64,000 bases of DNA from Planctomycetota bacterium (GCA_030748415.1 JASMMA010000005.1:129434-193433), one strand, 5' to 3'; shown: positions 1 to 28,531, counted from the first letter of the stretch. Notes: generated by a model not told the origin, from the sequence alone. Numbers and translations: made by a program.

Positions 1-708
1 ACCCGAACCAATAACTTTATTTCTTGGATTTGGTCTTTGGATTCCTCTCAGGCCTCTCTCTTTGAAGGGCTGAAAGCTGGGCGCCTCTTCTTTGGAGACC
101 CCACCTTGTTTGATGGCACCGTTGACATCAAGCTGGGTAACGACTTCGAAATGGGTCAAATTGTTGTGAATGATTTAACCACCCACGACATTTCCATTTC
201 CATTACTGGGCTTAACTCTGGAGATATTGTCCGCATCATTCAATCTGGCGATGTTGTGTTTCAAAACGCTGTGACCGGAACCAGCTTTCTGCACAATCAG
301 GCATTCGCTGTCCCTAAAACCGAAGACTCCTTCTACCGGGTGGAAGTTTGGGAGCCCGGGGGAATTGCCAAGGTGTTTAGTAATCCCATATGGCTTCCCC
401 GGCTCAGCACCAAACGAGCCATCCGCGCCGAACAAGCTGGAATTCACTTAGATGGAATTGTTAGCAAGGAGTTTGAGAACTTCCAGATGACAAAAGCTCG
501 AATTTCTAGGCCACCCAACGGCAGCGACAAACTGCTTCTTTATGGTGAGGCTCAAAATGGTCGCGTCGTTCTGGACTTCAATTCAGCACCTAGCTTGCCG
601 GCACAAGTTTCTTTCCGCGGAAGTATGACTGGGTCCTGGAGCATTCAAAACAATCTGCTCACCTTTGAAAATATCAATGGTGATGGGTGGCTAGAAATGC
701 GTTTCTAG
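1..708 (+). CDS. C-terminal part of a PHP/CehA-like protein (cut by the left edge)
   Basis: The reading frame is open from base 1 through the TTG that the ORF track uses as a start at 37, so this is the 3' end of a longer gene. The visible 235 residues begin with 'TNNFISWIWS' followed by 'LFEGLKAGRLFFGDP'. That resembles the end of the PHP-type metallohydrolase domain in CehA/McbA-like proteins, where a 'GLRAGR' segment precedes a beta-sandwich tail. The rest is beta-rich, contains 'VFSNPIWL', which often closes that domain, and ends in an all-beta segment of about 70 residues. No metal-binding histidines are visible because the catalytic half lies outside the window. The stop overlaps the convergent napH end by 18 bases. 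The family call is tentative; an unrelated secreted beta-domain protein is possible. Confidence 0.45.
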   Translation, partial: TRTNNFISWIWSLDSSQASLFEGLKAGRLFFGDPTLFDGTVDIKLGNDFEMGQIVVNDLTTHDISISITGLNSGDIVRIIQSGDVVFQNAVTGTSFLHNQAFAVPKTEDSFYRVEVWEPGGIAKVFSNPIWLPRLSTKRAIRAEQAGIHLDGIVSKEFENFQMTKARISRPPNGSDKLLLYGEAQNGRVVLDFNSAPSLPAQVSFRGSMTGSWSIQNNLLTFENINGDGWLEMRF

Positions 709-1302
709 CATTCGGTTGCAACAGTTTTGCTCGGAGCACTTTCGTTGCATGGAAGGTAGGTTGCCTAAGGGGCAGATGTTTTTGCAAAAAAGGCGCGGAT
801 AAAACCAATCCAGGAGAATCGCTAGGGCTGGGAGAATCAGGTAAAGCTGGAGCCCGAATACGAGGCCCAAAATGAGGCTATTGATTGGGGAGAGTATTTG
901 AAAAACAGGGAGTCCAGAAGTGAAAGAGATAATTAAGATGAGGCTCAGAGCCCAAAGATTGGGTTTGGAGTAGTGACAAACCGGTTCCACTGGCTTGCTG
1001 TGGGAACGAAAGGAGCGGAGGGTGGAAAACAAAAAGCCAAGAGGGCAGAACCACCGACAAAAAGAGCGTTGAGAGAATAGAGCAAGCAAAAATAACGGGG
1101 AAGCCGCAAGCCATAACTTGGCTGGCCATTGCCCACTTGCAAACCCAACCTCAATCGCGGCTAAAGGATCGGCAAGTTGCAAGTATTCAAACCACCGTGC
1201 AGAAGTAAAAGACCCTTTAACCCAAAAGGAATCACTCCAACCCCCTATTAAAAAAGAAGCGAAAACGACAAACGCAGTTCCGCGGCGGAGCCAAGTTTTC
1301 AT
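691..1302 (-). CDS. napH: NapH-like membrane ferredoxin-type quinol dehydrogenase subunit
   Basis: This 203-residue membrane protein has about four hydrophobic helices and two cysteine motifs, 'CRWFCPLG' and 'CKNICPLG', which in NapH face the cytoplasm. In NapGH systems NapH oxidises menaquinol and hands electrons to NapG. NapH proteins usually run to about 260-290 residues with a C-terminal 2x[4Fe-4S] ferredoxin part. Here the protein stops soon after 'CSEQNC', so the ferredoxin tail is short or missing. The ATG at 1302 is chosen because it follows the napG stop after one base; the longer ORF-track start is a TTG inside napG. It is the last gene of the nap operon. Confidence 0.8.
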   Translation of the reverse strand: MKTWLRRGTAFVVFASFLIGGWSDSFWVKGSFTSARWFEYLQLADPLAAIEVGFASGQWPAKLWLAASPLFLLALFSQRSFCRWFCPLGFLFSTLRSFRSHSKPVEPVCHYSKPNLWALSLILIISFTSGLPVFQILSPINSLILGLVFGLQLYLILPALAILLDWFYPRLFCKNICPLGNLPSMQRKCSEQNCCNRMLETHF

Positions 1303-1303
1303 T

Positions 1304-1903
1304 TCAAGTTTCCCCAACCGGCACCATTCGAATAGAGCTCGGTTCCGTTAAACATGCCCAATCGCATATTCCACAGCCAACGCAAATGTCGGCAACAATC
1401 ACGGGCCGGTTCCTTTTCAATTGAATTGCTTCATCTAAAAAAGGGCACGCGTGCCAGCAAGCCCTGCAGATTTGCTTATTGAAAGCCAAACACCGCTCTT
1501 CATCAATGACGGCCGTTCCCATTCGAATACTGCGGCGGTCTTGAACTTCGGCCAAAGCTCCACTGGGACAAATCTCGATGCAAAGAAGCTCGTCAAGGCC
1601 CTCGCATAATCGGCATGGGTTATTACGGCTATCGACTTCTGGGCTTCCCGCCGAGGGCCCCGACCACAAGTCCTGCAAGCTCAAACTTTCATGAGGGCAA
1701 ACCTGCACACACTGTCCGCAGCGTATGCAGGCCGCCAAGAAATCCAACTCGTTGCTAGCGCCAGGAGGCCGAAGACTTCCAGCGCGCTTGGAGGCCCAAA
1801 CCCCCAAGGCCTTTCCGCCGGCAGCAGCGCAGGCGGTCCAGGCAGCGCCTGCGAGCAACCGACGGCGGGTTATTTTCCTGCCGTCGGCCACCCTTTCAAC
1901 CAA
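1304..1903 (-). CDS. napG: NapG-like periplasmic ferredoxin (four [4Fe-4S] clusters)
   Basis: The 199-residue protein opens with a twin-arginine signal ('TRRRLLAGAAW'), so it is exported folded with its clusters. Four cysteine groups follow: 'CIRCGQCVQVCP', 'CRLCEG....CIEICP', 'CRACWHACP' and 'CVGCGICDWAC', the pattern of MauM/NapG ferredoxins. With NapH it forms a quinol dehydrogenase that feeds NapAB, and no napC is present. The only start upstream of the Tat motif in the full frame is a TTG at 1903, one base after the napB stop; a GTG four codons further in is an alternative. It is translationally packed between napB and napH (one-base gaps on both sides). Confidence 0.88.
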   Translation of the reverse strand: MVERVADGRKITRRRLLAGAAWTACAAAGGKALGVWASKRAGSLRPPGASNELDFLAACIRCGQCVQVCPHESLSLQDLWSGPSAGSPEVDSRNNPCRLCEGLDELLCIEICPSGALAEVQDRRSIRMGTAVIDEERCLAFNKQICRACWHACPFLDEAIQLKRNRPVIVADICVGCGICDWACLTEPSSIRMVPVGET

Positions 1904-1904
1904 C

Positions 1905-2213
1905 TCAGGGATTGGATGTATGACAAGTCCGGCACTTTGCCTGCACCAGAATGTCTGCCATCCCTTCGTGTTTCGTAATCGGGGCGTCGTTCTTCCCGTT
2001 TTCGTGGCAAGTCAGACAGTTGTCCTTCATCCACGAATCCCGCGAATCCATTTTGTGATCCTCATCGTTTGGAAGGATCGGTGGAAACGCACCCGAGTAG
2101 AACTCAACCGGGTAAACCGTGTCGTCGGGGTTTGCGGCGTGTACTGCGTTGTCCACACCTCCCGAACATGCAACAGTCAAAAACAAGGTGAGTGTTGTGA
2201 GCAAAAGTTTCAT
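1905..2213 (-). CDS. napB: NapB-like diheme cytochrome c, electron-transfer subunit of nitrate reductase
   Basis: The product is a 102-residue exported protein with two CXXCH heme sites ('CLTCH', 'CRTCH') near the C-terminus, as in NapB, and the conserved NapB-like sequence 'YPVEFYSGAFPP...IPN/LPND' before the first heme. The N-terminus is a lipoprotein-type signal ending 'TVACSGG', so the mature protein may be lipid-anchored, which is unusual for classical soluble NapB. It should pass electrons from NapGH to the NapA iron-sulfur cluster. The gene begins three bases after napA and ends one base before napG. Confidence 0.9.
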   Translation of the reverse strand: MKLLLTTLTLFLTVACSGGVDNAVHAANPDDTVYPVEFYSGAFPPILPNDEDHKMDSRDSWMKDNCLTCHENGKNDAPITKHEGMADILVQAKCRTCHTSNP

Positions 2214-2215
2214 GC

Positions 2216-4549
2216 CTATGCCTCCCCTCCGACTTTCTCAAGTTTGACCGCACAGATTTTGAACTCAGGCTGTTTGGAGCCCGGGTCAATCGCATCAATG
2301 GTCACTTTGTTAATCAAGCTTGCTTCATCCGCCCAGTGCCAAGGAACGAAGACCGTTCCGGGTAGTGGGTGGCTGACAACACGCGCTTTAATGGTGGACA
2401 CTCCGCGACGCGAAATGATGCGCACCTTATTCCCCGTTCGAATGCCCATCTTGGCGGCATCTTGCGGGTGCATTTCTACATAGCACTCAGGGTAAGAACG
2501 GCGAAGTTCGTCCGCCTTCATGGTCATTGTTCCTGTGTGCCAGTGTTCCATAACCCTCCCTGTAGAAAGAACAAATGGGTACTCGCTATCGGCAGGCTCA
2601 GCGGGCCCAACAACGGGTCGTAGCCAAACGATGGCCTTTTGATCCTTCGCGCAGTAGAACTTTGTCTCGCCAGGTTTCAGGGTGTCATCCTTGTAAGTTG
2701 GGTTAATGTCCAGAACAGGGTCATCGCCCTTCACAAAGCGGCGCGTCGTTCCGGGGTGGTTCTCAGTTGGGCAAGGCCAGCGGAGGCCCCGCTCTTTGTG
2801 CAATCGTTCGCGAGTAATCCCCATGAAGTCATAAGACGTTCCCTTCGATGCGAGGCGAATTTCATCCCAAACATCGTCGGTCGTATGGAACTTTCCGCCG
2901 ATGTATCCCTTCTTCACAACGCCACGGTCTTCGAGACCTTGGGCGAAGTCCAAAAGAATGTCGAAGTCCGAGCGCGCTTCGCCTGGTGCTTCTTTAACCT
3001 TGGGGTGAATCTGGTATCTGCGTTCAGACATTCCAAACACGCCCGTTTTCTCTGACCACATGGCGGCCGGAAGGACAACATCTGCCATGTCCACCGTTCG
3101 GCTTGGGTAAGAATCCAAAACCACAATGAAGGGTTTGTTCGGGCGGGCTTTTCCAATGGCATCTCCATGCTTATTCACATTGGGGAGTGAATGAGCAGGG
3201 TTTGTCGTTAGCATGAACATGGCTTGGATTTCATCCCGTCCAAGAGCTTCAAACATGGCAATGGTGTGAAGCCCTGGCTTGGGTTGAATTTTTCCAGGTT
3301 CGGAATTCCAAAGTTTTTCCATTGCGGCGCGATGCTCGGGTTTTTTGACCAAGCGACCGTAAGGAAGAATGTGGCACAAGGAACCGGTGTCGCGAACACC
3401 ACCACACGCATTAGGTTGGCCGGTCAGGCTGAATGGAGTCATTCCTGGTTTTCCAATCTGGCCCGTGATGAGGTGCAAGTTGTGCATGAGGTTGTTTGCC
3501 CAAACCCCTTTCACGCGTTGATTGAGTCCCATGGTCCAGAAGGACATGGTTGGGCCCTCGGCAAACGAACGGGCAGCGCGCCGAATATCGCCGGCTTTTA
3601 CGCCTGCAATCTTTTCAGCTTTCTCTGGTGAGTAATCTTCAAGAAATGCTTTGTATCCCTCAAAATCCACGCCTACCGGTGCGCCATCTTTCACAGCTTT
3701 GAACTGGACATTCTTCGCCATGAACTTTTTGTCGTACAAACCCTCATTCACAATGACATGAGCCATCGCATGGAAAATTGCGAGGTCGAAACCTGGCTTG
3801 GGCTGTAAGTACAAATCAGATGCGGTGCTTATCGGGGATTTGCGAGGGTCAATCGAAATGACCTGAATCGCACGACCTGATGCACGCTCAGCTAGGATTT
3901 GGTCAAAGATGACTGGGTGGCACTCGGCGGTGTTGGAGCCAACAAGGAAGAAAACACGAGCGCTACGAATGTCGTCATAGCAGCCCATGGGTTCATCCTT
4001 TCCGAAAGTACTCACATAGCCCCCCACGGCAGATGCCATGCATAGGCGTGGGTTTCCTTCAACATTGTTCGTGCCGATTCCGCCCTTGAAGAGGCGATTT
4101 GCGAGATAGGACTCTTCGGTCATCGCCTGGCCAGAGCCGTAGTAAGCGGTTGCGTTGGGTCCCTTCTCTTTGATGACCTTGGCGAACTTGTCACACACAA
4201 GGTTCATGGCTTCATCCCAACTCGTACGCTCCAACTTGCCGTTCTTGCGCACCATGGGGTACTTCAAACGGTCGGGGCTATTTACGATCTTGGGAAGGAA
4301 TAGTGCTTTGGCGCAAACGAGACCTCGGGTGGTTGGGTGTTCGTTATCACCGCGAAGTGCGACCAGTTGGCCACCCTTCACGCCGAGCATCACACCACAG
4401 CCGGTTCCGCAAAAACGGCATACTGACTTCACCCATCGATCTGGCTTGTTCTTCGCTTCCAAAACACCCGACGGCTTGGCGCATCCTGCGGCACCTGCCA
4501 CAGCTGCAACCGCGCTCGCCTTAATGAATTCGCGACGATTAGCTTTCAT
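2216..4549 (-). CDS. napA: Periplasmic nitrate reductase catalytic subunit (Mo-bisMGD)
   Basis: This 777-residue molybdoenzyme reduces nitrate to nitrite in the periplasm. The start at 4549 gives 'MKANRREFIKAS', a Tat signal with the twin-arginine near the N-terminus; the ORF-track start 13 codons upstream lies further inside napD. A 'GAAGC' segment after the Tat hydrophobic stretch could also act as a lipobox. The [4Fe-4S] site reads 'CRFCGTGCGVML' with the fourth Cys in 'GLVCAKAL'. The molybdenum-ligand region 'GNPRLCMASAV' has the Cys expected of NapA, against Asp in NarG. The C-terminal molybdopterin-binding domain is complete ('TGRVMEHWHTGTMT'). It overlaps the end of napD by 11 bases, so translation is coupled to its chaperone. 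Confidence 0.97.
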   Translation of the reverse strand: MKANRREFIKASAVAAVAGAAGCAKPSGVLEAKNKPDRWVKSVCRFCGTGCGVMLGVKGGQLVALRGDNEHPTTRGLVCAKALFLPKIVNSPDRLKYPMVRKNGKLERTSWDEAMNLVCDKFAKVIKEKGPNATAYYGSGQAMTEESYLANRLFKGGIGTNNVEGNPRLCMASAVGGYVSTFGKDEPMGCYDDIRSARVFFLVGSNTAECHPVIFDQILAERASGRAIQVISIDPRKSPISTASDLYLQPKPGFDLAIFHAMAHVIVNEGLYDKKFMAKNVQFKAVKDGAPVGVDFEGYKAFLEDYSPEKAEKIAGVKAGDIRRAARSFAEGPTMSFWTMGLNQRVKGVWANNLMHNLHLITGQIGKPGMTPFSLTGQPNACGGVRDTGSLCHILPYGRLVKKPEHRAAMEKLWNSEPGKIQPKPGLHTIAMFEALGRDEIQAMFMLTTNPAHSLPNVNKHGDAIGKARPNKPFIVVLDSYPSRTVDMADVVLPAAMWSEKTGVFGMSERRYQIHPKVKEAPGEARSDFDILLDFAQGLEDRGVVKKGYIGGKFHTTDDVWDEIRLASKGTSYDFMGITRERLHKERGLRWPCPTENHPGTTRRFVKGDDPVLDINPTYKDDTLKPGETKFYCAKDQKAIVWLRPVVGPAEPADSEYPFVLSTGRVMEHWHTGTMTMKADELRRSYPECYVEMHPQDAAKMGIRTGNKVRIISRRGVSTIKARVVSHPLPGTVFVPWHWADEASLINKVTIDAIDPGSKQPEFKICAVKLEKVGGEA

Positions 4550-4811
4550 GATTGTTGGTTGGTTGGACTTCTTCGACTTCGTCTTCAATGTTGGCGTATG
4601 AAGGCCAAACCCCTAAGACTCCATCTATGGACTCAATTTGGTAGCGGATTATTTCGTGAGCAGATTCAAGAGAATCCGTCTCGACAAGGATCCCCAACTT
4701 GCTGGAATCCTCGAGCTCAAAGGTGCTCACGCCCTGAATGGCTGTAAGAGCCACCTCAGCCCTCTTTTGGAGGCCGGGCTCAATGCGTGCAAATGCTCCG
4801 ACAATGGCCAT
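4539..4811 (-). CDS. napD: NapD, chaperone for NapA maturation
   Basis: The product is a 90-residue cytoplasmic protein of the NapD family, which binds the Tat signal of NapA and prevents premature export. The ATG at 4811 starts 'MAIVGAFARIEPG'; the longer ORF-track version adds 25 residues translated from the upstream terminator and is rejected. The sequence has the ferredoxin-like beta-alpha-beta pattern and 'GVSTFELEDSSKLGILVE', matching the family's early strand-helix part. It is the first gene of the nap operon (D-A-B-G-H), separated from the octaheme gene by a terminator hairpin. Confidence 0.88.
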   Translation of the reverse strand: MAIVGAFARIEPGLQKRAEVALTAIQGVSTFELEDSSKLGILVETDSLESAHEIIRYQIESIDGVLGVWPSYANIEDEVEEVQPTNNHES

Positions 4812-4907: not shown

Positions 4908-6527
4908 TTATTTATCGAATTCGAAAACCTCCACACTCTTGTCATCGGTAAACCATTGGTGCTCTGGGCGCTCAAGGATTGCATCGATAACAGCCCTAAC
5001 CGCGTCTGCACCCTCTTTATTGCCGTGGTGTTCCGCCTCTTCGGCCATCTCGCGCGCTTGCGGTATGAGTTCGAGGTAGAAGCGTTCCGCGACTTCGTAG
5101 AGGCCATGCCAGTGCGTGTAATCCGGTGCCATCATGGCCGCCCCGTGGCGAGCACGGCGACCTTCATGGTGCCAAAGGTAGAACCAAGTCCATTCAATTT
5201 CCTCATCAAACATGGGCACAGTTCGCACATTGTTCGACTTGAGAGCTCCCATAATCTTGAGACCCGGCTTAGCGAACTTCTCGTTGTAGAGAGTGATGAG
5301 ATCGTCGTACTGCTCGTAGAACCCGCCGACATAACCTTTCGAGTGGCAGTTACGGCAGACATCCTTCATGCGGTTCCGCTTATTCTGCCAAGAGTCTCCA
5401 CCATCGGCCAGCAAGTTACGCCGCTCGATAGGATCGGTGGTCTTGATTCGCTTGTTGTTCTTATCGGTATCCATGACAGCAGAAACCGGTGGACGGTTGG
5501 TCCATGAAATCCGAAGGCCAGGGTCGTGGGTGATTTTCCCACCGTTGTTCTTGTTTCCAGACATGTGGCAAGTTGCACAAGTTGGAGCGGCGTTGTAATC
5601 CTCGCCCAAGACCCAAGTTTCGCTATCCAAGTTGAGTTCGTCCTTCATGTCGCGGTAGGCGATACCGTGCTTGGACTCTTCGTACACCTCTTTCTGTGGG
5701 TGGTCAGGGCCGAGGTGACACTTGCCACAGTTTTCTGGTTGGCGAGCGCGGCGCGGCGAGAAGTCATGCCGGCTGTGGCACGCTGAACAAGAGCCCTTGG
5801 AACCATCTAGGTTAAAGCGACCAATACCTGTGTTGGGCCAGCCATCTTTCGCAAGCAAGGGCATGCCTTCGCCGTCGCGGGCAATCATGGCAACTGCGGC
5901 AGCATTCGTTGGCTTCCCGTTAGCGTCAGGCTTCAATTCATCCATAGTGATGAGGCTTCCGTCGGTGCCTTCCAGGGCAACCTTGGAGCCGTGGCATTGC
6001 TTACAACCAAGGTTGACAAGGCCGTATCCGTAAACCATGTCGCGGTCGGAGCGACCTGGAGTTGGAGAGTGTGGGCTAAACTCACCTCTCATTCCTTCAG
6101 CAACTTCGGCAAGCCGGTTATCGAGAGAAGCCAGAATGTGACCCGCAGTGGAGTGGTGACTCGCCTGGAACTCTTCGGCTTCGTCGGGGTGACACCGAGC
6201 ACAATCCAATGGAGTGACAATCGTGGCAATGAGTGAACCTTCATGGTGGAAGGCATCCACATCGCCTTCTTCGGCTTCGTGGCACTCAAAACAGCTGACA
6301 CCTTTTTCGGCGTGGGTGGAACCCGTCCAGTGGTCAACAATACCTGGGGTCTCGTTGAGGTGGCACTCGACACAGCGTTCGCTGCTTGCGGGTGTAGCGA
6401 TGTGTGCCGAACTCATGCCGGCTTCTTCTTGTTTGCGAGCAATCTCCATTTTCTGAACGAAGAGAAGAGATGCAAGGAAAGCGGCGCCAAGTACGGCGAT
6501 GATGAACTTCTTAGCGGTGAGGCTCAT
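4908..6527 (-). CDS. Octaheme cytochrome c of the hydroxylamine oxidoreductase (HAO) family
   Basis: The 539-residue protein has an uncleaved-looking N-terminal hydrophobic anchor (residues 8-24) and eight CXXCH sites at about residues 52, 79, 109, 175, 247, 267, 317 and 391. No CXXCK is present, which argues against NrfA. The run 'CSACHSRHDFS...CGKCHLGPDH' and the tail 'HHEGRRARHGAAMM..DYTHWHG' are typical of HAO-like octaheme proteins. Members oxidise hydroxylamine or, in versions lacking the P460 crosslink tyrosine, reduce nitrite or hydroxylamine. Which applies needs an alignment of the tyrosine region near residue 470. It follows the Rieske/cytochrome b genes by 35 bases and precedes nap, so nitrite reduction is the likelier role. 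Confidence 0.9.
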   Translation of the reverse strand: MSLTAKKFIIAVLGAAFLASLLFVQKMEIARKQEEAGMSSAHIATPASSERCVECHLNETPGIVDHWTGSTHAEKGVSCFECHEAEEGDVDAFHHEGSLIATIVTPLDCARCHPDEAEEFQASHHSTAGHILASLDNRLAEVAEGMRGEFSPHSPTPGRSDRDMVYGYGLVNLGCKQCHGSKVALEGTDGSLITMDELKPDANGKPTNAAAVAMIARDGEGMPLLAKDGWPNTGIGRFNLDGSKGSCSACHSRHDFSPRRARQPENCGKCHLGPDHPQKEVYEESKHGIAYRDMKDELNLDSETWVLGEDYNAAPTCATCHMSGNKNNGGKITHDPGLRISWTNRPPVSAVMDTDKNNKRIKTTDPIERRNLLADGGDSWQNKRNRMKDVCRNCHSKGYVGGFYEQYDDLITLYNEKFAKPGLKIMGALKSNNVRTVPMFDEEIEWTWFYLWHHEGRRARHGAAMMAPDYTHWHGLYEVAERFYLELIPQAREMAEEAEHHGNKEGADAVRAVIDAILERPEHQWFTDDKSVEVFEFDK

Positions 6528-6562
6528 GGTATTTCTTATTGAGTGTTCAGGAAGGCGGGAGG

Positions 6563-7609
6563 TTAATGTGCGACGACCGCCTCCCAGACGGTCATTCCAA
6601 TGATTGCGAGGACACCGAAAATCCCAACCCAGACGCTAAATTCACTTGCGGGACGCGTTTTGCGCACTTTCGCATCAATGAAAGGCCAAAAGATCATCAC
6701 AAAGAGAATGAAGCCGGTGCTAATGATTGCGGTGGTTTCCGGGAACATTTTCAGCCACCGGAAAGCGACGTAGAACCACCATTCAGGTTTGATGACTTCA
6801 GGTGTCACCAATGGATTGGCCTTGGGTCCCATTTCGGCAGGGAAGACAATCGCAAGAGTGCAAAGGAGAATCATCAGCGAAAGCCCAAGAATGAGCTCCG
6901 TGAAGAAGTGGTCTGGGAAAAAATTAAAGTGCTTGGGTTTGTCTTCGGGCTCGTCTTCGAAACTTAATTCGCTAACACCCTGAAGGCGAATGATGGTGAT
7001 GTGTAAGAACACCAAACCCAAAATGGCGGCGGGTAGTACTGCGCCATGAAGCACGAAGAAACGGGAAAGAGTGTTTGCGTTGTACGCGTCACCCCCGAGC
7101 AACATGTTCTTCATAAAGCCGCCGATGAAGGGAACATTATCCGTAATGTTTGCTCCCACGGTTGCGCCCCAGAAAGAAAGTTGTTCGTAAACCAAGCTGT
7201 ATCCGGTAAATCCGGTCATCAAAACACAGATGAGCAGCATCATGCCGACCATCCAGTTTATTTCGCGAGGCTTGCGGTATGCGCCAGTGAAGTACACGCG
7301 CATCTGGTGCAAAACCACAGCAGCTATCATCAAGGTTGCGGCCCACTTGTGCAGGCTTCGAATGAACCAACCAAAGGCGGCCTCATCAGAAATGTACGCA
7401 ACCGATTCCCAAGCGGCGTCGGGCGCGGCTTTGTAGTAAAAAGCCAGCATGATGCCGGTAATGATTTGGACGACAAAAAGATAGGCAGGAGTTCCGCCCA
7501 AGGCGAACCACCAGCGCTTCATGTGGTTGGGGACCGGTTCGTTTGAAAGTTCGCGGAGTTCGTCGCCGTCAACCGGGAGTCGTTCTTTTAGCCAGTTAGT
7601 GATGCCCAT
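6563..7609 (-). CDS. Cytochrome b of a Rieske/cytochrome b (bc-type) complex
   Basis: This 348-residue membrane protein combines the b6-like N-terminal half and the subunit IV-like half in one chain, with about eight helices. Heme-b histidines are H87 and H101 ('SLHKWAA...VLHQMRV') and a second pair in 'FVLHGAV...LVFLHIT', with 14 residues between, as in b6-type proteins. The quinol-site loop carries 'PEWWFYVAFRWLKMFP', the PEWY region with Trp in place of Tyr. It should oxidise menaquinol together with the Rieske protein encoded 9 bases upstream. No cytochrome c1 or cytochrome f gene is adjacent; the next gene is the octaheme cytochrome, which may take that electron-acceptor role. Confidence 0.92.
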   Translation of the reverse strand: MGITNWLKERLPVDGDELRELSNEPVPNHMKRWWFALGGTPAYLFVVQIITGIMLAFYYKAAPDAAWESVAYISDEAAFGWFIRSLHKWAATLMIAAVVLHQMRVYFTGAYRKPREINWMVGMMLLICVLMTGFTGYSLVYEQLSFWGATVGANITDNVPFIGGFMKNMLLGGDAYNANTLSRFFVLHGAVLPAAILGLVFLHITIIRLQGVSELSFEDEPEDKPKHFNFFPDHFFTELILGLSLMILLCTLAIVFPAEMGPKANPLVTPEVIKPEWWFYVAFRWLKMFPETTAIISTGFILFVMIFWPFIDAKVRKTRPASEFSVWVGIFGVLAIIGMTVWEAVVAH

Positions 7610-7618
7610 TTTTATTTC

Positions 7619-8131
7619 CTAGGCCAGGCCCTCTAAGGCAACCTCGATGAAAAGAAGGCCGTTCTTGACCATGAGTGGGTAGCGCGAAAGCGATTGGCCC
7701 GCATCGGCGGGTGGCCCGGAAACGCCCGTGCCATCTGGGGCAAAAACGCCGTTGTGGCATGGGCAGAAAAACCGGTTGTTGTGTGCTTCCCAGGCGACCT
7801 TGCAACCTAAGTGCGGGCATGTGCTGGAAAGGGCGATGAAATTATCCGCAGTTGTTCCGCTTCCCTGGCGAGCGACCACGATGGTCTCGCCATTGGGGGC
7901 GCGGTAATTCATAGCCTCACCACGACCCAGCCGGGTCACTTGAAGAACGAACTGCCAACGCTTGCTCGGCGGCTTTGCTGGGTAAAGAAAACGGCCTGCA
8001 GCAGCGCCGCAAGAGCCGTAGCCAGCAATCAGCCCGCCTAGCATCGCCAGCGAGGAGACACGGCTTAAAAAGCTGCGACGATGTGTCCCGTCCGCAGCAG
8101 GGTTCTCGGGTTCCCTGGTTGGTTCCGTCAT
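7619..8131 (-). CDS. Rieske [2Fe-2S] protein of the bc-type complex
   Basis: The product is 170 residues. An N-terminal Tat-like segment ('RRSFLSRVSSLAMLGGLIAG') serves as the membrane anchor, followed by the Rieske fold with cluster motifs 'CPHLGC' and 'CPCHNG', each supplying one Cys and one His ligand and the disulfide Cys pair. It accepts one electron from quinol at cytochrome b and delivers it to a periplasmic c-type partner. It is the first gene of the Rieske - b - octaheme unit, starting 88 bases after the sulfatase stop. That gap has room for a promoter, with a weak TTGTCA / TAATCA pair visible on the minus strand. Confidence 0.93.
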   Translation of the reverse strand: MTEPTREPENPAADGTHRRSFLSRVSSLAMLGGLIAGYGSCGAAAGRFLYPAKPPSKRWQFVLQVTRLGRGEAMNYRAPNGETIVVARQGSGTTADNFIALSSTCPHLGCKVAWEAHNNRFFCPCHNGVFAPDGTGVSGPPADAGQSLSRYPLMVKNGLLFIEVALEGLA

Positions 8132-8219: not shown

Positions 8220-9686
8220 TTACTCTTCTTCGAAGCCGGTGTAGCCCAGTTCGGAGAGCTCAGCTTGAAGTTGTTGGTCCACGGCGCCCTGAATCTGAGC
8301 GGGGGCCAGTTTTTCGTCCAGTTCACGACCCGCCTCGCGCCAAGCTTTCCATTCGGCAAGCAAGCCATCTAGGACCTCTCGGTATTTTTGGGCTTGTTGG
8401 GGGTCCTTAAGGAGGTTGCGGGCCTCTTTGGGGTCGCGAGACAAGTCGTAGAGCTTGACTTTTGCTTGACCGTCCTCCATTTGCTTCACAATGACCTTCC
8501 ACTGCTCATCCACGCGAAAGCTCATCAAGTCTTGATGCATTGCCATCCGAAAGCGCTCCCCTCCAAAGCTGGCCGTGCCACGGGCAAGATCCATGAGGCT
8601 GGTTCCCTGCACCCCTTCCGGTGCGGGGAGTTCGAGGGCATCCAGCAGGGTTGGGAGGACATCCACCAACATGACGGGGTCTGGAATCCGGGTGCCGCCC
8701 CACTCTCCGCCTGGAAACCGAATCATGAGTGGCACATGGAGCTGCTCCTCCCACATTTGGTTGTGCCCAATGTAGCGGTGTTCGCCCAAAGTCTCTCCGT
8801 GGTCGGAGGTGATTATCAAAATGGATTTGTCCAGCACCCCATCCTTGCGGAGCATTTCCAAAAAGCGGCCCGTGAGTTCATCGGTCATGGCCACGCCAGC
8901 GTCGTACATGGCGTTGAGATAGTTGATGTCCTCATTTTTAACGCCGCCATCTAGGAAGGCTTGGAAATCCTCCTGCCCGCACATGCTCTGAAGGTCGGCC
9001 GAGCCCTCGTACCAGCTTCCGTAACGGTTCCGATAACCTTCCCCGGGCCAGTAAGGACAGTGAATGTCGTAGGTGTGTAAGAAGAGGAAGAATGGGTTTC
9101 CCGTGGTGCCATTTGCCCAATTTGGGGATTCTTTCCGCCACCAGCTTGCGGCCTGGGGCAAAATCGAGCTCAAGCCACGCCGGTACTGCATGCTTTCTTC
9201 ATAGCCTTCATCTTTGTCCACATAAATATCGAAGCCATCGGCAAAACCAAGCTTTCCGGCGAGAAAGCCGCCCCCAGTAAAAGCGGCGGTTTGGTAGCCA
9301 ACATCTTTGAGGAGCCCGCTCAGCATAAACGGGGACTCCACATAACTCCCCATCGCGTGCTTGTGCCGAGTGGGAAACATCCCTGTGAAAAGGCTCCGGT
9401 GGCTGGGGCCCGTATTGCTGGATTGGGAAATGCAGTTTGTGAACACGACCGACTCGCTTGCGAGCTTGTCCAGCGATGGGCTGTTCGGGTTGCGTGCGCC
9501 CATAAAACCCAAACGGTCGGCGCGGCAGGTGTCGAGGCTCACCAAAATAATGGGGGGCATTCCCGCGGCCTGCGCGGCAGATGCTCTTTTTTCAGCAGAG
9601 GAGCCCTCGCCGGAATCTGCCCCACCGCAAGCAGGGAGAAAGGAAGCGAGAAGGGCAAGAATGAGGGCGCTCAAACGATGAATCAT
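8220..9686 (-). CDS. Sulfatase-family lipoprotein with a Thr at the formylglycine position
   Basis: The 488-residue product has a lipoprotein signal ending 'FLPACGG' and the alkaline phosphatase/sulfatase fold: 'ILVSLDTCRADRL' at the metal site, 'ITSDHGETLGEH' for the second metal-binding Asp-His, and 'VDVLPTLLDAL'. The usual C/S-X-P-X-R signature that matures to formylglycine is replaced by 'NTGPSHRSLFTG', with Thr where Cys or Ser is expected and His at the Arg position. It may therefore not be a classical sulfatase and could be a phosphodiester or phosphonate hydrolase of the same superfamily. The ATG at 9686 is preferred over the GTG at 9692 because AGGA is well spaced before it. It is upstream of and on the same strand as the Rieske gene, with no obvious functional link. 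Confidence 0.85.
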   Translation of the reverse strand: MIHRLSALILALLASFLPACGGADSGEGSSAEKRASAAQAAGMPPIILVSLDTCRADRLGFMGARNPNSPSLDKLASESVVFTNCISQSSNTGPSHRSLFTGMFPTRHKHAMGSYVESPFMLSGLLKDVGYQTAAFTGGGFLAGKLGFADGFDIYVDKDEGYEESMQYRRGLSSILPQAASWWRKESPNWANGTTGNPFFLFLHTYDIHCPYWPGEGYRNRYGSWYEGSADLQSMCGQEDFQAFLDGGVKNEDINYLNAMYDAGVAMTDELTGRFLEMLRKDGVLDKSILIITSDHGETLGEHRYIGHNQMWEEQLHVPLMIRFPGGEWGGTRIPDPVMLVDVLPTLLDALELPAPEGVQGTSLMDLARGTASFGGERFRMAMHQDLMSFRVDEQWKVIVKQMEDGQAKVKLYDLSRDPKEARNLLKDPQQAQKYREVLDGLLAEWKAWREAGRELDEKLAPAQIQGAVDQQLQAELSELGYTGFEEE

Positions 9687-9768
9687 TCGCACATCCTAAC
9701 TTGGCGTTATTTGGAGCCCCGAAAGAAGGCCGCTGGAATATTTACCTCAACTGCCCTACAACAAAAAC

Positions 9769-10008
9769 ATGACCCAACCCAAAAAGGCCCGAAGTGACCA
9801 CCCCCTAGTTCAAAAAGTCCAGCCTGGCCGCTACGCCTGGTGCACATGCAGCCTTTCAGACAAACTTCCGTTCTGTGACGGCAATCACCGTGGCACAGAA
9901 TTCTCTCCTCTTAAAGTAGAGATTGAAGAAAAGAAAACTGTCGCCTGGTGCGACTGCGACAAAACTTGCAACGCCCCTTGGTGTGATGGTGCGCATTCAA
10001 AAGAATAA
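9769..10008 (+). CDS. Small double CDGSH iron-sulfur protein
   Basis: This 79-residue cytoplasmic protein carries two copies of the C-X-C-X..-C-D-G-X-H motif: 'WCTCSLSDKLPFCDGNH' and 'WCDCDKTCNAPWCDGAH'. Each motif of the CDGSH family binds a [2Fe-2S] cluster through three Cys and one His, so two clusters are expected. The redox or cluster-transfer partner cannot be read from the sequence. It stands alone between a divergent sulfatase gene and a convergent dehydrogenase gene; the 82-base gap upstream should contain its promoter and that of the sulfatase. Confidence 0.88.
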   Translation: MTQPKKARSDHPLVQKVQPGRYAWCTCSLSDKLPFCDGNHRGTEFSPLKVEIEEKKTVAWCDCDKTCNAPWCDGAHSKE

Positions 10009-10036
10009 AGTGTGGATGGAGACAGGGCTCCGTAAA

Positions 10037-11266
10037 TCAATCGAGCCGCACTTCACCAAACGGCATGTAAGTTTCTAGTTCGGGTTCAGTTGGTGCAATT
10101 GCGCGGTCTTCAGCAGCTGACTTGTAAGCTGCCATAAGAAGGCGCATCACTTCAACACCATCACTGAAGTCGAGCTTGGGCTTTGTTCCGCTGAGAAAGG
10201 ACTGAACAAAGTAGCGGTCTTCGCCGGCGTACCCGTAGTGGGCAGGTTCATTGGGAGAAATGGGCATGAGGCCCTGTTCGGCGTTTTGTTTTTCAACTAG
10301 ATCCTCGCCGGCCTCACCGGTCACTTCGCGGGAAAAGAAAACACTTGCGCCACATTGAGCCATGTTGACTTCCATTGCGTATTCAGGTCCCAACAGCTCA
10401 AATGTGTGGCGAATGCCCGCACTCACAAAACACCAAGAGGATGTCGTTTCCGTCAACAATTCCTGACCATCATCCGTGCGCCAATGAACCGTTGCGCGTG
10501 AAAAATCATCGGCAGGGTTTTTGCTCCAATCCACGGCATCGCCGTAGCGATTCTTCAGCTCTTGGACATAGTGGGGCCTGTCCCACTTCAAAGTTCCCAC
10601 GGTGGCGCTTACTTTTTCTGGTGTAAGGCTTGACCGAGGTGCGCCAGGCTCGGTGAGCAACCAACGCGCGGCCTCAATACTGTGGCACATCATGTCCAAG
10701 AGGGAGCCGCCTCCTGCGAGCTCTCGTTGCCAAAACCAAGCCGAATGTGGGCCCGCATGCTCTTCGGCAGCCCTTGCAAGGTAGGGGCGACCGGACAACT
10801 TTGCACCTCGCCGCCACAAAACTTCTCGGGCGCGAACAACGGAAGGTGCCCAGAGCATGTTTTCTAAATAGCCCGTAGGCACGCCGATTTCATCGGCAAT
10901 GCTTTTGACTTGAAGTGCTTCTTGAAGGGTTCGGGCGAGAGGCTTTTCTAAACAAATACCCTTCAGAGGCGTTTCGCGCCTTTGGGAGCCGGCAAGCACT
11001 TCTTCCATGACAGGGATGCGCGTGTGGTTTGGATTGCTTAACCAAAGTGCGTCCACACTTGGGTCGGCAGTCATTTCTTCAACAGAATCAAAAGCGCGGG
11101 CTGACAGACCGACGCCCAACTCTTTTGCGAGTTTGGCAGCCGAGTCCGCGGAGGCCTTCGTATGGCTTACGATTCCAACGACCTCACAGTCGCGAACTTC
11201 AGTAAGAGCCTGAATGTGAAAGCGGGTATTAAAACCCGCGCCAACAAATCCGATGCGTAGTGTCAT
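10037..11266 (-). CDS. Gfo/Idh/MocA-family NAD(P)-dependent dehydrogenase
   Basis: The 409-residue enzyme has an N-terminal Rossmann domain opening 'MTLRIGFVGAGFNTRFH' (GXGXXX motif) and the family's 'ICLEKPLARTL' segment (EKP motif) near residue 115, which contributes to catalysis and cofactor binding. The C-terminal alpha/beta domain is complete, including 'GGSLLDMMCHSIEAARWLL'. Such enzymes oxidise or reduce sugars, inositols or related polyols; the substrate is not predictable. The ATG at 11266 overlaps the stop of the upstream MFS gene as ATGA, so translation is coupled and the transporter may import its substrate or a precursor. Confidence 0.9.
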   Translation of the reverse strand: MTLRIGFVGAGFNTRFHIQALTEVRDCEVVGIVSHTKASADSAAKLAKELGVGLSARAFDSVEEMTADPSVDALWLSNPNHTRIPVMEEVLAGSQRRETPLKGICLEKPLARTLQEALQVKSIADEIGVPTGYLENMLWAPSVVRAREVLWRRGAKLSGRPYLARAAEEHAGPHSAWFWQRELAGGGSLLDMMCHSIEAARWLLTEPGAPRSSLTPEKVSATVGTLKWDRPHYVQELKNRYGDAVDWSKNPADDFSRATVHWRTDDGQELLTETTSSWCFVSAGIRHTFELLGPEYAMEVNMAQCGASVFFSREVTGEAGEDLVEKQNAEQGLMPISPNEPAHYGYAGEDRYFVQSFLSGTKPKLDFSDGVEVMRLLMAAYKSAAEDRAIAPTEPELETYMPFGEVRLD

Positions 11267-21089: not shown

Positions 21090-21812
21090 TTAGCTAATCA
21101 GGTAGAGGAGCGGGAAGAGGAAAATCCAAATGAGGTCAACGAGGTGCCAGTAAAGGGCACCGCAATCGACTGCGTCGTACTTGTCAGGGGTAAAGTCCCC
21201 TCGCATGTTTCGCCTCATCAGCCAAAGCATCAGGATGATTCCGATGAGAACGTGGATGCCGTGAAGCCCGGTCAAGCAAAAGTAGATTCCGAAGAAAATA
21301 CCGGTTTGACGGCGGAACTCGGGGTCAAGCTCTTTAACATCATCCCAGTGGTGGCCATGCTCTTGCACAGATGCTGCAACATCTGAAGGGTCTTCCTTGA
21401 ACATGGTGTGTTCGGCATTTCCCCACAAAAGACCTTCGTGGTATTTGTGGGAGTATTCCATGTACTTGATGGCCATAAAGCCACAGGCACAAAGAACCGT
21501 AATGCCGAGTAGCATTGTCACGAGGCTCTTTTGTCCAAGCTGAACGGCGCGAACAGCCCAGGCGGCAGTAAACGAGCTCAGCAGAAGGACCGCTGTGTTG
21601 ATGGCCCCCAAGTTGGTGTCCAGAAACTGGCTCGCAAATTGAAAGACTTCAGGGTGATTCGCGCGGTATGTTGCGTACGCAACAAAAAGACCACTGAAGA
21701 AAAGGATTTCCGTGAGGAGGAAAACCCACATCCCGAACTTGTTGGTATCAAACTGTTGTCCAAGGTCGTCGAAATGATGGGCAAGTTTGCTGTCGTGGTG
21801 GTCAGAACTCAT
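21090..21812 (-). CDS. coxC: Cytochrome c oxidase subunit III
   Basis: A 240-residue protein whose helices match COX3: 'KFGMWVFLLTEILFFSGLFVAY' opens the family domain, 'QTGIFFGIYFCLTGLHGIHVLIG' and 'LYWHLVDLIWIFLFPLLYL' close it. An inserted loop of about 45 polar residues ('HTMFKEDPS...ELDPEFRR') separates the middle helices and is longer than usual. Subunit III supports proton uptake and stability of subunit I. It starts two bases after coxA on the same transcript. Confidence 0.93.
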   Translation of the reverse strand: MSSDHHDSKLAHHFDDLGQQFDTNKFGMWVFLLTEILFFSGLFVAYATYRANHPEVFQFASQFLDTNLGAINTAVLLLSSFTAAWAVRAVQLGQKSLVTMLLGITVLCACGFMAIKYMEYSHKYHEGLLWGNAEHTMFKEDPSDVAASVQEHGHHWDDVKELDPEFRRQTGIFFGIYFCLTGLHGIHVLIGIILMLWLMRRNMRGDFTPDKYDAVDCGALYWHLVDLIWIFLFPLLYLIS

Positions 21813-21814
21813 TT

Positions 21815-23491
21815 TCAGGCCTCCGAGGTTTCGACTTTGCAGATGAGAGGATTGTCCTGGCGAGGATTTACGGGCAGGTAGCCTTCTTCATCGGATTTGA
21901 ATTGAATCTGGGTCATGTCGTATGGGTCACCAACCGCAGGAGCTTCATCAAAATTATGAGGTGAAGGGGGCGATTCGCATTGCCATTCAAGCGTTGCTGC
22001 GCCCCAGGGGTTCGGCGGTGCTTTCTTTCCAGTTTTAAGGGACTTCAAAAGGTTCCAGAAAATCATCACGACAGCAAGGCCAATCAAGGCAGCGCCAACG
22101 GTGGAGATTTGGTTCAAGTACTGGTATTGCGGGTGGTAATCAAAGTACCGACGGGGCATTCCACGGGTGCCCATTAGGAACTGAGGAAGGAAAGTTAAGT
22201 TGAAGCCTAGGAAGGAGATAATCGTCCAAAAGCGACCCTTCGCTTCGTTGTACATAACTCCAAACATTTTCGGCCACCAGTGATGAACGCCTCCGAGATA
22301 GGAGAACAAAGCCGAACCCACCATCACAAAGTGGAAGTGAGAAACAACGAAATAGGTGTCGTGAAGGTGCATGTCTGTGGATAGGTTTGCCATCCACAAG
22401 CCTGTAAGTCCACCAATCCCGAACAACCAAATCACAGAGAGGGCAGAAACCATTCCTGTCGTAAAGCTGATGGAGCCTTTGTACATCGTGGCAACCCAGT
22501 TAAAGACTTTGATTGCCGAAGGAATGGCCACCGTGTAGGTCAACGCCGAGAAAATGATGGAAACCAAAGCGGATTGGCCACTCACATACAGGTGGTGGCC
22601 CCAAACAATAAAGCTCACGATGGCAATAGCAATCGAACTGTAAGCGATAAAGTTGTATCCAAAAATGTGCTTCCGGCTGTAAGTTGAAAAGAGCTCAGAA
22701 AGAACTCCCATCGCTGGAAGAATCATGACATACACGGCTGGGTGACTGTAGAACCAGAACAGGTGCTGGAACAAAACGGGGTCACCGCCCAAGGCGGGAT
22801 CAAAAATTCCAACGCCCATGATGCGTTCCACAGCAATCAGAAGAAGGGCAATACCCAAAACTGGTGTTGCCAAAATTTGAATGACTGATGTTGCGTAAAG
22901 AGCCCAGCAAAGGAGGGGCATCTTGAACCAGGTCATGCCTGGCGGGCGCATCTTGTGAATGGTGGCAATAAAGTTCAGGCCAGTAAAAATGGAACTAAAT
23001 CCAATGACAAAACCACCAAAGACCGCAATGACAACCGATGTGTCTGTACTTGTGCTGTATGGAGTGTAAAAAGTCCAGCCAGTGTCCAAGCCGCCTGTCA
23101 AAATGGCCAGAACAAGAAGAAGCGCGCCAATCAGGTAAAGGTGGTAAGAGAGTCGATTAATTTTCGGGAAGGCGACATCCTTTGCCCCCAGCATCATTGG
23201 GAGGACAAAGTTTCCTAAGGCCGCCGGAATACTCGGAATGATGACGAGGAAAATCATCACCGCACCGTGCAAAGTGAACAGATGGTTGTAAATGTCCTTG
23301 CTCACAAAGTCCTGTCCAGTAGTGAACAATTCAAGGCGAAGGAGAAGTGCAAAGGCTCCACCAAGCAGCATGGCTGCAAAGGTGGACCACATGTACATCA
23401 AGCCAAGTCGCTTGTGGTCAAGGGTCATGAACCAGGACTTAAAGCCCGACTCGTGATTGAGGTAATTAATGGAGGAATCGTGGGTATTCAT
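21815..23491 (-). CDS. coxA: Cytochrome c oxidase subunit I (A2-type heme-copper oxidase)
   Basis: The 558-residue catalytic subunit reduces O2 to water and pumps protons. Heme and CuB histidines are visible: '[11 protein letters not shown]', '[13 protein letters not shown]' (CuB His with the crosslinked Tyr), '[10 protein letters not shown]' (two CuB His) and '[14 protein letters not shown]' (heme a3 and heme a). At the end of the D channel the motif is YSHPAVY, not the HPEVY that contains the conserved Glu. YSHPXV is the signature of A2-type oxidases such as the Thermus and Rhodothermus caa3 enzymes. A polar C-terminal tail of about 60 residues extends beyond the last helix. Confidence 0.97.
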
Positions 23492-23500
23492 GGTTCTCTC

Positions 23501-24484
23501 CTACTGAACAGTTTTTATGTATTCGATGATTGCGTCCATTTCCTCGGCCTTAAGTTGGCCCTGGAATGTCGGCATGGAAGGTGCAAAACCTTCAACCACT
23601 TTAGCCAGAGGTTCGAGCAGGGATTCGCGAATGTAATTTTCATCAGCAATGGCGGTCGTGCCATCGGTGAACTTGCGCTCGGCTCCAAACATGCCCTTCA
23701 CTGTTGGGCCAACGAGCGGGGTTCCATTTGTGGTGTGGCAAGCGACACAACCTTTCATAGAGAATAGTTTTTCACCAGCTTCCACAGGGGAGAGGTTGGC
23801 AAGAAAATCGCTGTTTTCCATCATCCACTTGTCAAATCCAGGACGGTCATGAATTACAACTTTAGCGAACATGGATGAATGCTCCGTTCCGCAATACTCA
23901 GCACACTTGAGCGGATATTCGCCGGTGCGTGTAGCGTTGAACCAAGTTTCTGTGTAACGGCCAGGAACAACATCCATCTTGATTCGGAACTCCGGAATCC
24001 AAACGCTATGAATGACATCGCGAGAATCCATAATCAAACGAACATTCTCCCCCATCGGTGCGTGCAGTTCGTTGTGTTGAACCCCGTTTGGATAGGTAAA
24101 GTTCCAGCTCCACTTCTGACCTGTTACTTTAATCTCGTAAGAGTCTTCTGGAGCGTATCGCCTTTGAACATAACCATCCATTCCAATGTAGAACAACCAA
24201 GCAACCAATATGGTTGGAATAATGGTCCAAACAATTTCAAGTGAGTTGTTGTGATTGGAAGATGGCTGAGGTTCAGGACTTTTCGATTTCCGAAACTTCA
24301 CCGAAAAGTAAATGGCGGCGGCATTAATCAGAAGAAAGAAGAAGCCGGCCACATACATCAAAATCATGAAAACATGGTCGTGCTGTGCGGCGGCCTCGGA
24401 ACCCTGCACCGGGAAGAGGAACCCATCTAGGGTTGTCTCTACCTTTTCGGCTTGCTGAAGGAGTGGAAGGAATGAAAGGGTCAT
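23501..24484 (-). CDS. coxB: Cytochrome c oxidase subunit II fused to cytochrome c (caa3)
   Basis: The 327-residue subunit has two N-terminal helices and a cupredoxin domain with the CuA ligands 'CAEYCGTEHSSM' (C-X3-C-X3-H-X2-M) and the earlier His in 'DVIHSVW'. A C-terminal cytochrome c domain has heme site 'CVACH' and Met ligand 'APSMPTF'. The fused cytochrome makes this a caa3 enzyme that takes electrons from a c-type carrier or directly from Alternative Complex III. Its start overlaps the SCO stop by 4 bases (ATGA). Confidence 0.95.
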   Translation of the reverse strand: MTLSFLPLLQQAEKVETTLDGFLFPVQGSEAAAQHDHVFMILMYVAGFFFLLINAAAIYFSVKFRKSKSPEPQPSSNHNNSLEIVWTIIPTILVAWLFYIGMDGYVQRRYAPEDSYEIKVTGQKWSWNFTYPNGVQHNELHAPMGENVRLIMDSRDVIHSVWIPEFRIKMDVVPGRYTETWFNATRTGEYPLKCAEYCGTEHSSMFAKVVIHDRPGFDKWMMENSDFLANLSPVEAGEKLFSMKGCVACHTTNGTPLVGPTVKGMFGAERKFTDGTTAIADENYIRESLLEPLAKVVEGFAPSMPTFQGQLKAEEMDAIIEYIKTVQ

Positions 24485-25329
24485 GCTGAGTAGTTCTCGG
24501 TTTTTACTCCAGAGCGACGAAGAAGGCGCAAAATGAAAGCGCCAAGGACTGCGATGGTGAGAGCGCCTGCAATACGAGTGATGTTCAAAATTGCGGGCGC
24601 GTACCGACCTTTCGTTGCGTCGTACTGGAAACAGAAGAGAATCAATCGGTCAATGGAAGACCGGACTTCGCCTTTTGCGGTCTCAAGCAAAGAAAGGCGA
24701 AGAGTTTCGGGGTCATATTCAATCCCGTAAAGATAGCGGGAAATTTTGCCGTCGGGCGAAAGAAGTACCAAGGCGGCGGTATGCGCAAATTCATCCTCAT
24801 CGGGGAGGAAGCGATATCCAAAGCCAATGCTTTCGGCTAAGGCAGTAATCGCTTCTTGTTTGCCTACGAGGAAATTCCAATCACCATTTTTGTGATTGTA
24901 GGCTTCGAGGTATCGAAAGCGAACATCTGCGGCCGCAGAGGGCTTTTCTTCAGGGTCGATACTAACCGTGGCAATATTGAAATCTTGGCCGGCGAGTTCA
25001 TCTAACTGGTTAATCGCATTAACAAGACCGGTAAGTTGCAGGTTGCACAGCATGGGGCAACTTGCATAGTTCAAAGTCAAAATAACAGGCTTTCCACTTT
25101 CAAAAAGTGAACCAAATGAACGCTGTTCGCCATCGTGGTTCTGGAACTGAAGCTCCATTGGGACACTCTGCCCAAGTTGCTCAGTAATCCCAACTTCGTT
25201 CAGCGCAGGTACAGGCCGTAGTTCTTGGGCATGAACAGGAAGACCGCCGAATCCCATTGCTGTGACCAGCACAAGGAATGAGGATGGCCGCGAGAGGCGG
25301 CTTTGGGCGGAAAAGAGAGAAATTTTCAA
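24481..25329 (-). CDS. Second SCO1/SenC-type protein, with a C-terminal membrane helix
   Basis: A 282-residue exported protein (signal ending 'LPVHAQE') with the SCO domain: 'NYASCPMLC' (CXXXC) and the partner His in 'EFAHTAALVLLS'. The residue after the second Cys is Asn rather than Pro. A C-terminal helix ('RIAGALTIAVLGAFILRLL') anchors it to the membrane. It probably loads CuA in the CoxB encoded immediately downstream (ATGA overlap). It differs clearly from the SCO lipoprotein at 15987, so the cell has two copper chaperones. Confidence 0.9.
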   Translation of the reverse strand: MKISLFSAQSRLSRPSSFLVLVTAMGFGGLPVHAQELRPVPALNEVGITEQLGQSVPMELQFQNHDGEQRSFGSLFESGKPVILTLNYASCPMLCNLQLTGLVNAINQLDELAGQDFNIATVSIDPEEKPSAAADVRFRYLEAYNHKNGDWNFLVGKQEAITALAESIGFGYRFLPDEDEFAHTAALVLLSPDGKISRYLYGIEYDPETLRLSLLETAKGEVRSSIDRLILFCFQYDATKGRYAPAILNITRIAGALTIAVLGAFILRLLRRSGVKTENYSA

Positions 25330-25343
25330 GCGGGCGTCTGTGT

Positions 25344-25580
25344 TTATTCGTCAGCAACCTCGGACATGGCGGACTGAATGTCGCCAAGATCGGACTTTTG
25401 CGATTGCTCCATAGCCGCACTCTCAGCGCCCAGATTCTTCGTGTTCTCGGCGGCGTACTGGCTCTCTAGGTCATGGAAGGCGCCGATCACAAGGTAAACC
25501 AATGCCAGGGTTAAGAAAGTACCAACCACCGTGATGGTGAACAGTTTGCTCATTGGGAGGTCGTCGTTTTGGTATGCCAT
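25344..25580 (-). CDS. Small single-helix membrane protein at the head of the cox operon
   Basis: A 78-residue protein with one hydrophobic helix ('LFTITVVGTFLTLALVYLVIGAF') and a charged, mostly acidic tail outside the membrane. I do not recognise a family. It starts the cox operon 14 bases before the SCO gene, so a structural or assembly role is likely. It could be a small oxidase subunit or a relative of the small ActG protein of Alternative Complex III, but nothing in the sequence decides this. An internal ATG at 25553 ('MSKLF') is an alternative start. Confidence 0.6.
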   Translation of the reverse strand: MAYQNDDLPMSKLFTITVVGTFLTLALVYLVIGAFHDLESQYAAENTKNLGAESAAMEQSQKSDLGDIQSAMSEVADE

Positions 25581-25624
25581 GGGGTGGTATTTTAACGGGG
25601 AGAAAAAGGCGAATCTAAATTCCG

Positions 25625-25634
25625 ATTATATAAT
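25625..25634. promoter_or_regulatory. Palindromic -10 element shared by the Rrf2 gene and the cox operon
   Basis: ATTATATAAT is a perfect 10-base palindrome that contains TATAAT on both strands. On the minus strand it is 45 bases from the start of the small membrane protein, a normal leader length. On the plus strand TATAAT ends only 6 bases before the GTG of the Rrf2 gene, which would give a leaderless or nearly leaderless mRNA. No clear -35 is visible on either side. It is embedded in the near-palindrome TCCG-ATTATATAAT-TGCGGA, a plausible binding site for the adjacent Rrf2 regulator. Confidence 0.55.
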
Positions 25635-25640
25635 TGCGGA

Positions 25641-26093: not shown

Positions 26094-26118
26094 GGCTCGG
26101 CCCTTCGGCGCCCCGAAA

Positions 26119-27354: not shown

Positions 27355-27366
27355 GAAAAGCCTCCT

Positions 27367-28530: not shown

Positions 28531-28531
28531 A

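Follow-up and report, generated by a model that had tools for sequence, protein, structure and literature searches.

A Rieske, cytochrome b and octaheme cytochrome operon in Planctomycetota as a candidate quinol-driven nitrite reductase

Here we describe a gene cluster on the minus strand of a 64,000-nucleotide stretch of DNA from a Planctomycetota bacterium (the window, meaning this whole stretch), in which genes encoding a Rieske protein, a one-chain cytochrome b and an octaheme cytochrome of the HAO family lie side by side, upstream of genes for the periplasmic nitrate reductase Nap. We propose, with a probability of about 0.65, that electrons from menaquinol would pass through the Rieske/cytochrome b pair to a membrane-anchored octaheme, which would replace cytochrome c1 or f and reduce the nitrite formed by Nap. 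If this is true, many uncultured Planctomycetota, Acidobacteriota and Gemmatimonadota reduce nitrite via a proton-pumping quinol complex, in contrast to NrfHA-type ammonification, which is usually taken as conserving no energy at the nitrite step. Nitrite reduction would then also occur in genomes that appear to lack it when surveyed for nrfA, nirK and nirS. The idea itself has been known since the 2017 description of Caldithrix abyssi, and our literature survey found no report of a test; added here are the breadth of occurrence of the operon, a rule linking the octaheme anchor to its partner, a tryptophan at the cross-link position, and a cultured carrier.

Operon structure and conservation

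An earlier note on this DNA had described a Rieske gene, a one-chain cytochrome b gene and a gene for an eight-CXXCH cytochrome in one operon lacking cytochrome c1 or f, with nap directly downstream, and our gene calls and Pfam assignments agree (Table 1). Because greedy gene calling in high-GC loci produces shadow open reading frames, homology-supported genes alone were used. The Rieske and cytochrome b genes are separated by 9 bases and the cytochrome b and octaheme genes by 35 bases; the octaheme gene is followed on the same strand by napD-A-B-G-H, and no cytochrome c1 or f gene lies within the gene cluster. The assembly from which the window derives is a metagenome-assembled genome (MAG) of 2.46 Mb, 90.6% complete, and contains one such octaheme and one cytochrome b. 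A distant c1 gene was sought as the missing subunit, and there was no PF02167 match in the whole of this 90.6% complete assembly (cytochrome f was not searched genome-wide).

A scan of public genomes returned 80 loci, approximately 64-75% identical (most 64-70%), in records named Planctomycetota, Acidobacteriota, Gemmatimonadota and Krumholzibacteriota, together with one Chlamydiae MAG and one Alphaproteobacteria MAG; the count of at least six named phyla is approximate because MAG names can be wrong. Neighbours were counted over 80 loci, with the window's own included and L073 left out for its broken octaheme frame. Where the contig was sufficient, 73 of 75 loci (L048 counted in) had cytochrome b directly upstream of the octaheme, and 66 of 69 had the Rieske gene upstream. 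Conservation of the triplet in dozens of genomes means that the arrangement is not due to chance. A NapA-type molybdoenzyme was encoded downstream in 22 of the 60 loci with 3.4 kb of downstream sequence, window included, and was accompanied in 20 of these by a tetraheme cytochrome with two NapB-like halves; octaheme and NapB aside, no multiheme gene recurred near the 80 loci. The suggestion of the earlier note that the operon is unusual did not hold, given that it is common in Planctomycetota, Acidobacteriota and Gemmatimonadota MAGs and that gene set and proposal alike were already published for Caldithrix abyssi. The idea is testable, since the operon is carried by a cultured bacterium, Bythopirellula polymerisocia Pla144 (L110).

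Of 392 genomes of the window's phylum, 46 contained a close octaheme and 41 a close cytochrome b, with the two occurring together in 39 (Fisher p ~4e-44, relatedness not corrected). Two genomes had the cytochrome b only, one of them with an octaheme fragment. Patristic distances of octaheme and cytochrome b were correlated (r 0.54, against at most 0.16 in permutations), an r that still contains the common ancestry of the hosts.

Three further observations concern individual loci. The tetraheme cytochrome with two NapB-like halves, seen after NapA in L042 (8122-8787) and 19 other loci, is possibly a duplicated NapB. In L128 (3598-13515), the Rieske, cytochrome b and octaheme genes adjoin genes for a very large 8-heme protein and for cytochromes predicted to carry 11 and 13 hemes. 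The L060 record is named Candidatus Kuenenia stuttgartiensis; its octaheme groups with those of ordinary Planctomycetota, and the name is therefore probably wrong.

Sequence and structural features of the three proteins

The cluster-binding motif CPHLGC is present in all 70 Rieske proteins and CPCHNGxF in nearly all. In ordinary Rieske proteins the potential is raised by a serine and a tyrosine; these residues of the high-potential type are missing from the motifs here, and the protein would appear to be of a low-potential, menaquinol type. Cytochrome b has seven predicted transmembrane helices and four heme-b ligands (His87, His101, His188 and His203), and thus the pair combines a Rieske protein with a cytochrome b bearing four heme-b histidines, as bc1 and b6f complexes do. 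Of 61 relatives, 37 have the cysteine for heme cn and the other 24, the window among them (Ala36, 7502-7504), have alanine in its place, and consequently heme cn may be optional in this cytochrome b family.

The octaheme is assigned to the HAO family by its eight CXXCH motifs, its PF13447 match and the HAO fold of its AlphaFold2 model, which was built from 52 diverse members and has a mean predicted local distance difference test score (pLDDT) of 89; an earlier model from close relatives only (pLDDT 62) was dropped. Structures matching the model were 4qo5 (Z 26.6), Kuenenia HOX (19.8), HAOr (18.9) and Nitrosomonas HAO (18.7), the next families being octaheme and pentaheme nitrite reductases (Z ~8-9). 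The closest solved structure by both sequence and fold, 4qo5, which we take to be the Ignicoccus hospitalis octaheme, differs from the window protein in having Asp-Val instead of a distal Asp-His in the alignment, and in its bacterial relatives the Tyr column is occupied by Phe. A quick tree places the Rieske/b-linked octahemes from the scan in one clade (100% SH-aLRT) and HAOr and the kuste4574-like proteins on a distant branch, the deep order being unsure on account of long branches. The label kuste4574-like is based on size, a neighbouring six-heme gene and published gene order, not on direct comparison with Kuste4574.

While direct profile alignment of the window family with Nitrosomonas HAO did not reach the C-terminal region of the P460 cross-link tyrosine, the two could be bridged through anammox paralogues, in one of which Tyr507 aligns gap-free with Tyr467 of Nitrosomonas HAO; the first bridging alignments had consisted mostly of Ignicoccus-type matches. 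In three MAFFT modes, the residue in the cross-link column is Trp473 for the window and Trp for each of the 35 aligned family members. The column likewise holds Trp in an HAOr orthologue (full-length match to 6h5l) and in kuste4574-like proteins, and Tyr in HDH and HOX-type sequences. The octaheme therefore appears to lack the P460 tyrosine; the tyrosine near residue 470 that the earlier note had named as a candidate exists (Tyr470), but lies three residues ahead of the column. According to a recent paper, the key site of reductive HAOs is occupied by His (PMC12758564), and with His472 adjoining Trp473 the register at this site is uncertain by one residue; whichever register holds, neither residue is Tyr. 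The Asp275-His276 pair is invariant in the 35 aligned members and nearly so in 52 family members, and because this distal pair is kept, the pocket looks catalytic. Lack of the cross-link tyrosine together with a conserved distal pocket is what the sequence of a reductive HAO would be expected to display. That a missing cross-link means reduction has been reported for HAOr and, by analogy, we infer the same for the window octaheme.

In the model, the N-terminus of the octaheme forms one long hydrophobic helix, which precedes a charged, conserved stretch, MEVxRRxEEAG. In seven genomes without this cytochrome b (G371, G301, G268, G293, G254, G052 and G072), octaheme N-termini, read directly, resemble cleavable signal peptides, as in ...FFVSPSFA-QGEAP and ...GAPLFA-QDAP; the N-terminus of L164 is counted among these seven unanchored close homologues. 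A charged-residue statistic was also tried and set aside as too crude, as signal peptides of anammox paralogues score as well. Distant relatives lying beside Rieske/b (L118, L119, L123, L128 and L170) are anchored, and G379 has two octaheme copies, one unanchored and the second Rieske/b-linked. An exception to the rule is L106, which is anchored and accompanied by NapA with no adjoining Rieske/b.

Signal peptides are also found on octahemes in NrfD-type clusters (L115, 3739-8271; L116, 4035-11724; L121, 3487-8391), where the octaheme follows a tetraheme cytochrome, a 4Fe-4S protein and an NrfD-type membrane protein (genes checked against Pfam in L115 and L116). These clusters look like a swap of the quinol module, with the NrfD-type genes standing in for Rieske/b, and in L116 the octaheme keeps NapA and a tetraheme NapB beside it although its quinol module is NrfD-type. 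In L162, a gene for a di-heme peroxidase (CCP_MauG; 9191-10165) adjoins a signal-peptide octaheme without a Rieske/b partner.

Proposed electron flow and alternative explanations

In the proposed scheme, the Rieske/cytochrome b pair would oxidize menaquinol on the periplasmic face of the membrane, with energy conserved through a Q-cycle, and the Rieske cluster would hand electrons straight to the anchored octaheme in place of c1 or f, a direct transfer that is proposed because neither cytochrome is present. The octaheme, as a putative reductive member of the HAO family, would reduce nitrite at its open heme site, the nitrite being supplied by the neighbouring Nap. The product may be ammonium, nitric oxide (NO) or both. 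Operons with NapA and NapB and no nearby NapG/NapH suggest that the octaheme may also feed NapAB. More tentatively, and short of an even chance, the Rieske protein, cytochrome b and octaheme would form one complex in which the octaheme, having replaced cytochrome c1, serves as both electron outlet to NapAB and nitrite reductase, so that a single operon would support electrogenic, energy-conserving respiration of nitrate to ammonium (or NO) without NrfHA in at least six phyla. The remainder of the window supports a dedicated role for the pair: genes for Alternative Complex III (ActA-, ActB-, NrfD-type and ActD proteins) and, after them, an aa3-type cytochrome c oxidase (21090-33721) likely encode the organism's aerobic chain, and because these can serve aerobic respiration, Rieske/b is not needed for it. 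Searches across the assembly found no NirK, NirS or Hcp, and for NrfA only a sub-threshold match to an ActA-like multiheme protein.

Several points weigh against this proposal. As the MAG is only ~91% complete, the absent genes may sit in its missing part. The window's own NapG/NapH could supply Nap without Rieske/b, and NapA is missing from the 3.4 kb downstream in about two thirds of loci, so that the link to nitrate is not universal. In L057 and L106 the octaheme has no adjoining Rieske/b pair, and G367, the single sampled genome of the same genus, has neither the octaheme nor this cytochrome b. The W/Y cross-link column adjoins an indel and was placed by sequence alignment, not superposition.

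Among other explanations, it is quite possible, if less than probable, that the octaheme is an NO-forming nitrite reductase like Kuenenia HAOr, performing a denitrification-type step and not ammonification. Both have Trp where the cross-link tyrosine would be, NO formation from nitrite has been reported for HAOr (PMC12485887), Onr-like octahemes have been suggested as a NirK/NirS replacement in Phycisphaerae (PMC11266412), and the assembly encodes a possibly NO-related pair of COX1-like and DUF2249 proteins; set against this are the distant tree branch of HAOr, the lack of any confidently identified NO reductase, and the assignment of nitrite to ammonia for a matching gene set by the Caldithrix authors. 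We consider it unlikely that the octaheme is mainly an electron distributor, a NapC stand-in from Rieske/b to NapAB with secondary catalysis at the open heme, even though NapA lies downstream in the loci counted above, mostly with tetraheme NapB, a NapG/NapH search of the loci matched L089 alone besides the window, and Qcr feeds Nap in C. jejuni. A mere wire would have no need of the invariant Asp275-His276 pocket, most loci have no nearby NapA, and the window has NapGH of its own.

That the octaheme and Rieske/b are mere neighbours, with Alternative Complex III or NapGH serving the octaheme, seems rather improbable in view of conservation over at least six named phyla, co-occurrence in 39 of 46 octaheme-carrying genomes, and an anchor that goes with the Rieske/b pair. 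In its favour, the window encodes Alternative Complex III, which the Caldithrix paper (PMC5317091) names as another possible donor, and unanchored homologues exist without Rieske/b. It is very improbable that the octaheme is an oxidative hydroxylamine dehydrogenase returning electrons to the quinone pool: the HAO fold would suit such a role, but the cross-link tyrosine occurs in no aligned relative, and an oxidative HAO/HDH identity was rejected on this ground.

Related systems and neighbouring genes

A literature survey combining epsilonHAO, Rieske and Planctomycetota returned nothing closer than Caldithrix and Kuenenia. The Caldithrix abyssi cluster Cabys_2564-2556, published in 2017, comprises nap, Rieske, cytochrome b and epsilonHao, for which a path from quinol through Rieske/b to the octaheme, with generation of proton-motive force, was proposed (PMC5317091). 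Like the window, it has Rieske and cytochrome b genes, with no monoheme c, next to that of a Tyr-less octaheme HAO, and has NapA, NapG and NapH in the nap cluster, Alternative Complex III elsewhere and no NrfA; it differs in having NapM where the window has NapB and in a partly different module order. Its octaheme (Cabys_2556) is likened to that of the window on the basis of its published description. The window thus holds a Caldithrix-type module: Rieske, one-chain cytochrome b, Tyr-less octaheme and nap, with no c1.

In Kuenenia stuttgartiensis, subunits of the R/b-3 complex (Kuste4569-4574), including an HAO-like octaheme, are reported to co-migrate (PMC12954380, PMC12485887). This complex shares with the window a Rieske/cytochrome b with a Tyr-less HAO-like octaheme, no cytochrome f and a proposed nitrite reduction, and differs by its split cytochrome b and subunit IV, an extra multiheme cytochrome and an NAD(P) oxidoreductase. 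Given the distant tree branch of kuste4574-like octahemes, the sequences suggest that this pairing arose independently. Kuenenia HAOr (Kustc0457/0458; 6h5l) has the HAO fold, Trp instead of Tyr and the distal Asp-His pair in common with the window octaheme; unlike the latter it is soluble, uses another redox partner and lies on a distant branch. In Campylobacter jejuni, Nap requires the Qcr complex (Garg and colleagues, PMC6195509), and QcrABC, like the system proposed here, is a menaquinol bc-type complex that electrogenically drives a periplasmic nitrogen-oxide reductase (PMC6195509), but it includes QcrC, a cytochrome c subunit, and lacks an HAO-like octaheme. The partner of epsilonHAO in Campylobacterota is NrfH-like, that of the window octaheme Rieske/b. 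Octaheme 'Onr' genes in Phycisphaerae have been noted without a Rieske/b link (PMC11266412).

Coordinates of the operon, the octaheme features and the downstream nap genes are listed in Table 1.

Table 1. Features of the Rieske/b-octaheme operon and the adjoining nap genes (positions in the window)
Feature	Coordinates	Strand	Remarks
Rieske [2Fe-2S] protein	7619..8131	(-)	170 aa; PF00355; motifs CPHLGC and CPCHNGVF
One-chain cytochrome b	6563..7609	(-)	348 aa; PF00033 and PF00032; PEWW motif
Octaheme HAO-like cytochrome, presumed nitrite reductase	4908..6527	(-)	539 aa; eight CXXCH; PF13447
Octaheme N-terminal membrane anchor, residues 3-35	6423..6521	(-)	model helix, hydropathy, kept in Rieske/b-linked relatives
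Codon of octaheme Trp473, at P460 cross-link Tyr position (Nitrosomonas HAO Tyr467)	5109..5111	(-)	
Codons of octaheme Asp275-His276, counterpart of HAO distal-pocket Asp-His pair	5700..5705	(-)	
NapD	4539..4811, ATG start at 4811	(-)	PF03927, E 1.4e-05, slightly under gathering score
NapA, periplasmic nitrate reductase catalytic subunit	2216..4588	(-)	best NCBIfam model NapA, 675 bits, below equivalog cut-off
NapB-like diheme cytochrome	1905..2213	(-)	102 aa; two CXXCH after NapA; weak multiheme match only
NapG ferredoxin-type protein	1304..1903	(-)	NF007012
NapH ferredoxin-type membrane protein, short	691..1317	(-)	NF007013

Elsewhere in the window's own genome (L160, 831-2640), a gene for a COX1-like protein adjoins one for a DUF2249 protein, a pair that may be NO-related.

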